Positions 18,916-22,483 of a stretch of 64,000 nucleotides of DNA are shown here, in pieces. Source of the DNA: Paracoccaceae bacterium (lineage in GTDB: Bacteria; Pseudomonadota; Alphaproteobacteria; Rhodobacterales; Rhodobacteraceae); assembly GCA_030148225.1 (NCBI GenBank), contig JASBTX010000033.1, positions 62,001 through 126,000 of the forward strand. The letters run 5' to 3'. The notes beneath the pieces were generated by a model. That model made no database searches. It was not told the origin of the DNA and was given only the letters and a program-made list of their open reading frames with translations. The first letter of the stretch is position 1, and every line of letters begins with the position of its first letter. A program made the position numbers and the translations under genes.

Positions 18916-19940
18916 TGCCGATCCTCAACTCCTTTGTCATTGCCGCGCTGGGCGTCGTGGCGTTCCATCTGCTGGGGCTGCCGCTGCCATGGCTTTTGGG
19001 TCCGATCACCGCCTGTCTGGCGGCGGCGCTGATGGGTGTGCCGATGCGCGGTATCAAACCACTCAATGACAGCATGCGCACGATACTGGGGGTTGCCGTC
19101 GGCGCCACGCTGACCCCGGCCGTACTGGCGACATTTCCCGCCATGTGGACCACGCTGATTCTGGTGCCGCTGATGGTGTTCTGCATCGGCCTTGTCGGTA
19201 TTCCCTATTTCCGGCGGGTCTGGCGATATGACTTTTCCACCGCTTATTACGCGACGATGCCGGGCGGCCTGCAGGACATGCTTGTCTTTGGCGAAGAGGC
19301 CGGCGGCAATGTCCGCACCTTGTCGCTGATACATGCCACGCGGGTTCTGGTGATCGTTGTCGCACTTCCCTTTATCCTGAGGGGGATTTGGGACGCTGAT
19401 CTCAGCAACCCTCCCGGCGAACCTGCGTCCACATTGCCCCTGGGTGAGATGGCGCTGATGGTGGCCTGCGCCATTCTGGGCTGGCAGGTTGCGCGCTGGG
19501 TCGGATTGTTTGGCGCGTCAATTCTGGGCCCGCTGATTGCCACCGGTATCGTGGCCATGCTGGGCTTGCTGACGCACCGCCCCCCGGCCGAGGCGATCTG
19601 GGCGGCACAATTCTTCATCGGCATGACCATTGGCAGTAAATATGCCGGCATCACATTGTCCGAGGTGCGGCGCGATCTGGTGGCGGGGCTGGGTTTCTGC
19701 CTGCTGCTGATCATCCTGACGCTGATTTTTGTCGAGGTGATATACGGCTTTGGCCTCGCGTCGGGGCAAGAGGCACTGCTGGCCTTCGCCCCCGGAGGTC
19801 AGGCAGAGCTGACGGTTCTGGCGCTGATCGTCGGGGCCGACATGGCCTTTGTCGTGGCGCATCATCTGCTCAGGATATTCGTGGTCATCCTCGGGGCGCC
19901 TTTGGTCGCCCGCCTGTTTGGCCGGAATATGCAGGGTTAG
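18912..19940 (+). CDS. AbrB-type integral membrane protein (PF05145 family)
   Basis: The 342-residue protein has about ten hydrophobic segments in two similar halves, each with the LPWLLGP / ASILGPLIATG type motif and TMPGGLQDM in the middle. This is the AbrB/AmoA duplication family. Older databases call it a transcriptional regulator or an ammonia monooxygenase, but the sequence is plainly a polytopic membrane protein, probably a transporter of unknown substrate. It is coupled to the GntR gene by an ATGA overlap, and overlaps the convergent TetR gene by 4 bases. By context it may move a compound of the adjacent catabolic block. Confidence 0.82.
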   Translation: MMPILNSFVIAALGVVAFHLLGLPLPWLLGPITACLAAALMGVPMRGIKPLNDSMRTILGVAVGATLTPAVLATFPAMWTTLILVPLMVFCIGLVGIPYFRRVWRYDFSTAYYATMPGGLQDMLVFGEEAGGNVRTLSLIHATRVLVIVVALPFILRGIWDADLSNPPGEPASTLPLGEMALMVACAILGWQVARWVGLFGASILGPLIATGIVAMLGLLTHRPPAEAIWAAQFFIGMTIGSKYAGITLSEVRRDLVAGLGFCLLLIILTLIFVEVIYGFGLASGQEALLAFAPGGQAELTVLALIVGADMAFVVAHHLLRIFVVILGAPLVARLFGRNMQG

Positions 19941-20506
19941 GGCAGCGCCTCAGTTTTTGTCTCGTCGGGTACAAATTCTGTCGTCACGCTGAATAATTGC
20001 CTGATCTGCGCCTCGTATAGCGGGCCCTCGGGCGCGCCAATGCCCGGCAGCCGCAGCGATTTCTCGGCAACGCTCATCCCCAGCAACACGGCCGAAAACA
20101 TCGCCGCGCGTTCCTGACTCCCCAGGATTTCGGCAATCGGATCATTGAAATTCCGGCGATAGCATTCGCGGACCATGTCACCAACATCGGTGTCATGGGC
20201 ATTGGTCAAAAGCATCCTCAGCGATGAGGGTTCGGGCGTTTGCCTTGGCGTATATCGGCAAAGATCAACGATTGCCTCAACCAGTTCGCGCGGGGTCAGA
20301 CCCCGGATCGCCTCCACCTCTGTCATCTGATCCAGAGTCGCCTGAAACAGGCCCTGCTTGCTGCCGAAATAGCGCGAGATCAGGGCGATATCGACGCCCG
20401 CCTCGGACGCGACCTTGCGAACGGACACGTTGGAATAGCCGCGCTCCCAGAACAGGCGGCGTGCGGCTGCAAGCAGTTTTTCCTGTGTTGTCGGAGTGGT
20501 CGTCAT
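19937..20506 (-). CDS. TetR-family transcriptional regulator
   Basis: The 189-residue protein has an N-terminal TetR HTH (about residues 8-54: KLLAAARRLFWERGYSNVSV..VASEAGVDIALISRYFGSKQGLF) and a variable helical ligand domain. ATG at 20506 begins MTTTPTTQEK and fits the family; the frame is open further upstream through the operator region. It is divergent from an SDR gene, and two near-identical 16-bp palindromes lie between them. It therefore most likely represses both itself and the SDR. Confidence 0.92.
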   Translation of the reverse strand: MTTTPTTQEKLLAAARRLFWERGYSNVSVRKVASEAGVDIALISRYFGSKQGLFQATLDQMTEVEAIRGLTPRELVEAIVDLCRYTPRQTPEPSSLRMLLTNAHDTDVGDMVRECYRRNFNDPIAEILGSQERAAMFSAVLLGMSVAEKSLRLPGIGAPEGPLYEAQIRQLFSVTTEFVPDETKTEALP

Positions 20507-20536
20507 GCCCGCTGACTTAAGACAGAATTTTATCTC

Positions 20537-20552
20537 GTCAACAAGTGTTGAC
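20537..20552. promoter_or_regulatory. TetR operator copy 1
   Basis: GTCAACA-AG-TGTTGAC is a perfect palindrome with 7-bp arms, in the TetR/SDR divergent region. Its right arm overlaps a TTGACA hexamer at 20548-20553, which with TACATA at 20570 could form the SDR promoter. Binding here would block that promoter. Confidence 0.7.
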
Positions 20553-20579
20553 AGTTTGGACGTGACGACTACATAGCCC

Positions 20580-20595
20580 GTCAACAACTGTTGAC
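20580..20595. promoter_or_regulatory. TetR operator copy 2
   Basis: GTCAACA-AC-TGTTGAC is identical to copy 1 except for the central base and sits 43 bases (about four helical turns) further on. It lies 25 bases upstream of the SDR start codon. Two copies on the same helical face suggest cooperative binding by two dimers. Confidence 0.7.
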
Positions 20596-20620
20596 AGACT
20601 CTGAGCGAAAGGAATTCATC

Positions 20621-21397
20621 ATGTCAAACACAGCCCTGATTACCGGTGCGTCTTCTGGTATTGGCGCGGCTCTGGCGCGCTATCACGCCGCGCAGGGGGG
20701 TGACCTTATCCTGACGGCGCGGCGCGAGGCGCAGCTGAATTCCCTCAAGGCCGAGCTCGAGGATCGCTACAGGATCTCTGCCCATGTCGTCGCCCTTGAC
20801 CTGGGCCAGGATGGTGGTGCCGAGGCATTGATCCAGAAAATCGACGAGGCCGGTCTGAAGGTTGACATCCTGATCAACAATGCCGGTTTCGGTGGTCACG
20901 GGCTGCATATCGAGCGTGACATCGCGGCGGAAAAGGCCATGATCGCGCTAAACGTGACCGCGCTGGTCACGCTGACGCATGAATTCGGCCGGCGTATGGT
21001 GGCGCAAGGCGGTGGCAAGATCCTCAATGTCGGCTCGACCGCCGGGTTCATGCCCGGCCCGTTGCAGGCCACCTATTTCGCGACCAAGGCCTTCGTGAAC
21101 TCATTCAGTCAGGCCATCGATCAGGAATTGCGGGACAAGGGTGTAACCAGCACCGTACTGGCCCCGGGCTATGTCGAAACGGGATTCATGGAAGCCGCCA
21201 ACCTGGGTGGCACGAGCATGGTCGAGGGCGGCGGCAAATCTGCTGAAAGCGTAGCGAAACACGGCTATGACGCGATGTTGCGGGGCAAGCTCGTGACGAT
21301 CAACGAAGGCAGGCTGAGTTTTCTTCTGAACTGGGTCGTGCCGTTCATGCCGCGCCGGATGGCGCTGAAAATGGTGCAGAACATGCAGGCGAAGTAA
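20621..21397 (+). CDS. Short-chain dehydrogenase (SDR), TetR-regulated
   Basis: The 258-residue protein resembles the DltE/YqjQ-type group of SDRs. It has TGASSGIG (residues 8-15), NNAGFG, catalytic Ser in VGSTAGF and YFATK. A basic/hydrophobic C-terminal tail (LNWVVPFMPRRMALKMVQNM) may associate with the membrane. GAAAGGA lies eight bases before ATG. It is controlled by the divergent TetR gene through the operator pair. Relatives act on lipid-like or xenobiotic carbonyls, but the substrate is not known. Confidence 0.88.
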   Translation: MSNTALITGASSGIGAALARYHAAQGGDLILTARREAQLNSLKAELEDRYRISAHVVALDLGQDGGAEALIQKIDEAGLKVDILINNAGFGGHGLHIERDIAAEKAMIALNVTALVTLTHEFGRRMVAQGGGKILNVGSTAGFMPGPLQATYFATKAFVNSFSQAIDQELRDKGVTSTVLAPGYVETGFMEAANLGGTSMVEGGGKSAESVAKHGYDAMLRGKLVTINEGRLSFLLNWVVPFMPRRMALKMVQNMQAK

Positions 21398-21418: not shown

Positions 21419-21450
21419 ACCTGCCCGCCCCGGTTCGGGGGCGGGTGGTT
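21419..21450. terminator. Bidirectional hairpin between SDR and tdh
   Basis: CCCGCCCC (21424-21431) pairs with GGGGCGGG (21438-21445) around a GGTTCG loop, and flanking ACC/GGT extends the stem. It lies exactly between two convergent genes, as expected for a shared terminator. There is no long T-run on either side. Confidence 0.5.
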
Positions 21451-22483
21451 ACCACGACATCACGACCTTGCCGGCCTCGCCGGAAATCATCGCGGCAAAA
21501 CCTTCTTCAAAATCATCGATGCCGATGCGGTGGGTAATCAGCCCGCTCAGGTCCAGCCCCGATTGCACCAGTGCGATCATCTTGTACCATGTCTCGTACA
21601 TCTCGCGGCCATAGATGCCCTTGACGTTCAGCATCTTGAAAATGATCTTGTTCCAGTCGACGGCAAAGGCGGTGGGCGCGATCCCCAAAAGTGCGATCTT
21701 GCCGCCATTGTTCATCTTGTCGATCATGTCGCGCATCGCCGGTGCCGCACCCGACATCTCGAGACCGACATCAAATCCTTCGGTCATGCCCAGTGCCTTC
21801 ATCACATCGGCCAGATCTTCGGTTCCGGCATCAACCACATGCTGAACCCCCATCTCGCGCGCCAGATCGCGCCGATAGGGCGAGATATCAGTGATCACCA
21901 CTTTGCGGGCCCCGACCTTTTGCGCAACCAGCGCCCCCATGATGCCGATCGGCCCCGCGCCGGTGACCAGCACATCCTCGCCCACCAGATCAAAGGACAG
22001 CGCCGTGTGAACGGCATTGCCAAAGGGGTCGAATATCGCGGCGATCTCGTCGGGAATGTCGTCCGGAATCGGGATGACATTGGTTTCGGGAATGCACAGA
22101 TATTCGGCAAATGATCCCGGCCGGTTCACCCCGACGCCCAGCGTGTTGCGGCAAAGATGCCCACGCCCCGCGCGGCAGTTCCGGCAGGTATTGCACACGA
22201 CATGCCCCTCGCCCGCGACACGTTGACCGATCCGGTATTTATTCGCTGCACGGCCCATATCGATGATCTCGCCGCAGAACTCGTGGCCCACCACCATCGG
22301 CACCGGCACGGTCTTGGCCGACCATTCATCCCAGTTCCAGATATGCACATCCGTGCCGCAAATCGCGGATTTCCGCACCTTGATCAGCACTTCGTCCGGC
22401 CCCGGTTCGGGCACGGGCACCTGCTGCATCCACAATCCCGGTTCGGGTCTGGCTTTGACGAGGGCCTTCATCTGGTTCGACAT
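21449..22483 (-). CDS. tdh: L-threonine 3-dehydrogenase
   Basis: The 344-residue zinc-dependent medium-chain dehydrogenase oxidises L-threonine to 2-amino-3-ketobutyrate with NAD+. The catalytic zinc residues are seen as ICGTDVH (Cys42) and GHEFCGEI (His67, Glu68). The structural zinc lobe is [15 protein letters not shown]. The Rossmann motif is [10 protein letters not shown]. Length and motifs match bacterial Tdh. It is the last gene of kbl - cysteine-synthase-like - tdh and begins 4 bases after the preceding stop, so the two threonine-to-glycine enzymes are co-transcribed. Confidence 0.96.

Follow-up and report, generated by a model that had tools for sequence, protein, structure and literature searches.

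Paired palindromes between divergent TetR-family and SDR genes of a Paracoccaceae bacterium as predicted operators of the adjacent regulator

Introduction

Two palindromic operators of ~ 15 bp lie between the divergent tetR and tetA genes, and both the repressor gene and its target are repressed (PMC3511530, in the parts of that article available here). The same parts report that divergent TetR-family genes less than 200 bp apart mostly repress their neighbour, and that these neighbours are mostly enzymes (PMC3511530). The window analysed here, a 64,000-nucleotide stretch of DNA from a Paracoccaceae bacterium, contains a locus of this layout: a TetR-family gene and a divergent SDR gene start 114 bp apart, with two putative operators in the gap.

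We read the two palindromes, with a probability of roughly 0.87, as operators of the adjacent TetR protein, which would repress both genes until a ligand releases it. The tetR/tetA-like layout, together with the 200-bp rule for divergent TetR-family genes, makes the operator assignment well supported. The switch itself is of an ordinary kind and its layout is kept in related bacteria. Within the portions of the literature covered by our search, no earlier description of this operator or of this TetR clade was found.

The regulator and its neighbours

The regulator gene occupies 19937..20506 on the minus strand, with its start codon at 20506, and its translation of 189 aa carries the domains TetR_N (E 5.2e-18; 65 bits against a curated cut-off of 24) and TetR_C_16 (E 3.3e-6; 27.7 bits against 26.2). 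The structure model is all-helical, with a mean pLDDT of 87.2. Its nearest solved folds are TetR-family proteins, the closest being 2guh from Rhodococcus (TMq 0.66), which is also the best match by sequence. In an alignment of eight rows, 17 of the 24 invariant residues fall at positions 7-56, the DNA-binding domain, as would be expected if all these proteins bind one motif. A scan of named genomes produced a single match, in Dyadobacter, which spanned only residues 12-63 and was set aside.

The divergent gene (20621..21397, plus strand) encodes a classical SDR oxidoreductase of 258 aa according to its translation (adh_short, E 3.5e-46; 157.6 bits against a curated cut-off of 26.6). The best NCBIfam model, mycolate reductase (NF040690), scored 195.3 bits, well below its cut-off of 380, and the protein was not assigned to that family; among solved structures, it is related to oxidoreductases of various kinds. 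The next gene past the SDR (21449-22483, opposite strand) encodes an L-threonine 3-dehydrogenase, with 575.5 bits where the cut-off is 380, and is, as far as seen, unrelated to the TetR/SDR switch.

The paired sites

The palindrome GTCAACA-NN-TGTTGAC occurs exactly at 20537-20552 (O1, nearer tetR, GTCAACAAGTGTTGAC) and at 20580-20595 (O2, nearer the SDR gene, GTCAACAACTGTTGAC), neither being assigned a strand. The start-to-start distance is 43 bp, or 4.1 helical turns of 10.5 bp each. With the shared flanks (C before, AG after), the two copies have a 19-mer in common, CGTCAACA-NN-TGTTGACAG. A preliminary description of this DNA had reported twin 16-mers four helical turns apart, each extending with its flanks to a repeat of about 19 bases, and both statements are confirmed. 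When the window was searched with up to 2 mismatches, exactly these two places matched, both with 0 mismatches; 100 window shuffles averaged 0.11 matches, and none (0/100) reached two.

The host assembly (3.5 Mb in 44 contigs, 89% complete) holds the motif at 2 places exactly, at 0 places with one mismatch and at 6 places with two mismatches, and the reversed pattern, used as a control, was found twice on each strand. All six two-mismatch places are inside open reading frames. The genome scan proposed in the preliminary description thus establishes O1 and O2 as the sole exact copies in the assembly, and its suggestion that the motif can define a regulon is unsupported beyond the TetR/SDR locus because exact and one-mismatch sites are otherwise absent from the assembly. 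A wide regulon is rejected on this ground and on the placement of the two-mismatch sites.

Eight genomes having the TetR contain 13 places matching GTCAACNNNNGTTGAC, 12 of them at the TetR locus. Twelve genomes have an examined SDR locus lacking the TetR, and the same pattern has one place each in 3 of them. Genome G139, whose SDR locus is without this TetR, carries GTCAACTTATGTTGAC (L055:1501-1516) between two divergent reading frames which we take to be hemC and hemE.

Conservation of the sites with the regulator

A search for the SDR in 394 family genomes at 1e-70 returned 32 places in 31 genomes, and 30 of these places were kept as loci. A divergent TetR relative lies beside the SDR in 7 of the 30, our own included. 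The site is present with at most 1 mismatch in 7/7 of these loci, and 6 have two sites, whereas it is absent from the 23 loci without divergent TetR, even at 3 mismatches over 260 bp upstream. The co-occurrence of TetR and site over the 30 loci has a Fisher p of 4.9e-7, calculated on related rows whose counts are not independent. Genus g294 shows both states: in one genome (L043) the SDR has neither TetR nor site beside it, and two others (L073, L075) have the TetR and the pair. On the SDR tree the loci with TetR are dispersed, with 7 changes, and the firm branches leave one independent SDR pair; counting on this tree adds little because the tree is weakly supported. At one of the 23 loci without divergent TetR (L037), a partial TetR DNA-binding match lies beyond the SDR, and two SDR relatives (L042 and G295:C43:10179-10952) contain one in-frame TAA each, these being pseudogenes or sequence errors.

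The pair was also searched on its own in the same 394 family genomes, as GTCAACNNNNGTTGAC, 21-34 bp, GTCAACNNNNGTTGAC. It was found in 5 genomes, once each and in every case in the gap that separates this TetR from the SDR; the reversed pattern was found in none.

A TetR profile search that was blind to the motif, run on 390 genomes of the order, revealed 10 new loci. In every one of them a site lies at a distance of 17-30 bp from the inferred start of tetR: 8 have paired sites spaced by 42-44 bp, one (L076) has a single exact site and one (L067) a 3-mismatch site only. The identification of the palindromes as operators of the adjacent TetR, as initially suggested, is therefore well supported by two comparisons: 7/7 vs 0/23 SDR loci, and 10/10 new TetR loci. 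A class-level search at 1e-30 (385 genomes) matched our own genome only, and a plasmid search for the TetR gave no match at 1e-20. At genus level the comparison is confined to our own genome, the only one in its genus.

The target is the SDR in 6 of the 10 new loci. The pair is retained before other targets in three (L068, L069, L074), therefore the operators follow the regulator and not the SDR. At L068 and L069 the paired sites, 43 bp apart, precede a gene for a 2Fe-2S protein (Fer2, Fer2_2, with Pfam run on that of L069 only); the gene behind it presumably encodes a molybdenum-hydroxylase large subunit. The neighbour at L074 has no Pfam match in its first 80 residues. At L014 and L067 the neighbour of the TetR resembles saccharopine dehydrogenase (Pfam on that of L014 only), and a single imperfect palindrome with 3 mismatches lies 30 bp from the tetR ATG; these are the only two of the 18 loci described below with nothing closer than a 3-mismatch site.

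Promoters and a proposed mechanism

Together with the base that follows, O1's right arm forms a candidate -35 box for the SDR gene, TTGACA (20548..20553, plus strand). A TTGAC[A/T] hexamer occupies this place in 18/18 loci, which is partly implied by the site itself, and this comparison supports the overlap of O1 with the SDR -35. The preliminary description had ascribed TTGACA to one copy. Since each site ends in TTGAC and is followed by an A, both carry it on the plus strand, but only that of O1 is suitably placed for the SDR. The candidate -10 box, TACATA (20570..20575, plus strand), follows after 16 bp and is weak, with 3 of 6 consensus bases. A second candidate, CATAGC, with a spacer of 18, scores equally, and -10 matches in the window are weak throughout (2 or 3 of 6). 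AAAGGAA (20608..20614, plus strand), read from the sequence, is a candidate ribosome-binding site of the SDR gene. On the minus strand, a promoter scan proposed CTGTCA-16-TAAAAT for tetR (20527..20554; 9 of 12 consensus bases), which spans O1.

Over the compared loci, our own included, the left arm of O1 reads TTGAC[N] towards tetR in 17 of 18 and TTGGCA in the remaining one (L074). A -10-like hexamer was sought 16-18 bp past O1 in all 18 loci, taking the best of three spacers. On the target strand 0 of 5000 shuffles were as good as the real sequences, and on the tetR strand 1 of 5000; with only the first 7 loci, the corresponding counts were 47 and 99 of 5000. Column counts over these first 7 loci are dictated at the arms by the pattern searched for and were given no weight. 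With either candidate for the tetR promoter, O1 appears to cover the SDR and tetR promoters alike, with O2 on the predicted SDR start, and O1 should control tetR as well as the SDR gene.

From this arrangement we infer the following switch. In the absence of ligand, a TetR dimer on O1 would cover the SDR -35 and overlap the tetR promoter, and a second dimer on O2 would cover the SDR start site. With both sites occupied, the SDR gene would be locked twice and tetR would be autoregulated. The TetR would be released by a ligand, probably one of the target enzyme's substrates or a related compound.

Spacing and alternative explanations

The geometry was compared over 18 loci in 11 genera (our own and 17 relatives). 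Pairs are present in 14 of them, with spacings of 42 bp (once), 43 bp (eight times), 44 bp (four times) and 46 bp (once). The other four loci (G211, G941, G120, G848) have a single site, so O2 is dispensable in some loci. O1, kept beside tetR in the relatives, has a nearly fixed position: of the 10 loci measured, 9 have it 29-30 bp from the tetR ATG and one has it at 21 bp, and the offset extrapolated for the 10 new loci, two of which (L067, L076) are also among those measured, is 29-30 in 9 and 17 in one. This fixed distance suggests that the tetR transcript starts near the ATG, and its message is possibly leaderless. O2 lies 4-25 bp from the first ATG, a spread which is rough because the first ATG is in some loci not the start of the gene. 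The spacer DNA of the first 7 loci has an average ungapped identity of 30% (0.19 to 0.58), therefore recent copying does not explain the spacing.

Of the 14 pairs, 13 are spaced by 42-44 bp, which is consistent with binding to the same face of the helix. The spacing might be functional: TetR dimers sitting in helical phase on the two sites would bind cooperatively, either by touching each other across a bend or by distorting the DNA. The four-turn distance, its persistence across diverged spacers and an O2-to-gene distance more variable than that between the sites speak for this. However, 27 bp separate O1 from O2, one pair is spaced by 46 bp, four loci manage with a single site, and promoter geometry alone, in the form of a fixed distance from -35 to start, could hold the spacing. 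We regard cooperativity as possible and lean towards doubting it.

Whether TetR is the protein that recognizes the palindromes must also be considered, as the link between them rests on comparison of sequences. Another regulator, encoded elsewhere, could bind the sites with TetR as a bystander. This is improbable: the sites accompany the TetR and are absent where the SDR occurs alone, they remain beside the TetR where another gene is the target, and the assembly offers no further exact or one-mismatch site. It is harder still to believe that the palindromes are chance repeats or mere -35 boxes with no operator role. Each arm does contain a -35-like TTGAC, but the window shuffles make chance not credible, no such palindrome is found at the 23 related SDR loci without TetR, and both sites recur at equal spacing in other genera amid diverged spacer DNA.

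With O1 and O2 read as TetR operators, the clade may share a portable cassette. Its operators would be four turns apart, with O1 built as back-to-back -35 boxes for the two genes and O2 on the target start; the enzyme would be swapped (SDR, 2Fe-2S oxidoreductase, other genes) under an unchanging cassette, and tetR would be leaderless. We offer this composite picture tentatively, at somewhat less than even odds.

Comparison with known systems

The analysis provides a well-defined predicted operator for a TetR clade, along with a likely reason for its conserved spacing. The locus represents a compact repressor and promoter part, and the exchange of target enzymes offers a way to approach the TetR ligand; the switch opens no long-standing question.

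The EdcR protein of Caenibius tardaugens, an estrogen-dependent TetR repressor, likewise has a palindromic operator over a promoter box and a proposed autoregulation (PMC8700777, in its accessible parts). Its palindrome, however, is longer and distinct, and according to the same parts EdcR controls estradiol-breakdown operons and responds to estradiol. The Streptomyces pairs of divergent TetR-family and enzyme genes, to which the 200-bp rule applies in the accessible parts of PMC3511530, are matched here by a 114 bp gap, an enzyme target and presumed repression. They differ in the bacteria and the motif, and sequence comparison here takes the place of gel shift. With tetR/tetA, as described in those parts of PMC3511530, the locus shares two palindromes between divergent genes, and the overlap with the promoters suggests that both genes are repressed here as well. 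The target of tetR/tetA is an efflux pump, whereas that of the present switch is a cytosolic-type SDR, preceded by a different motif.
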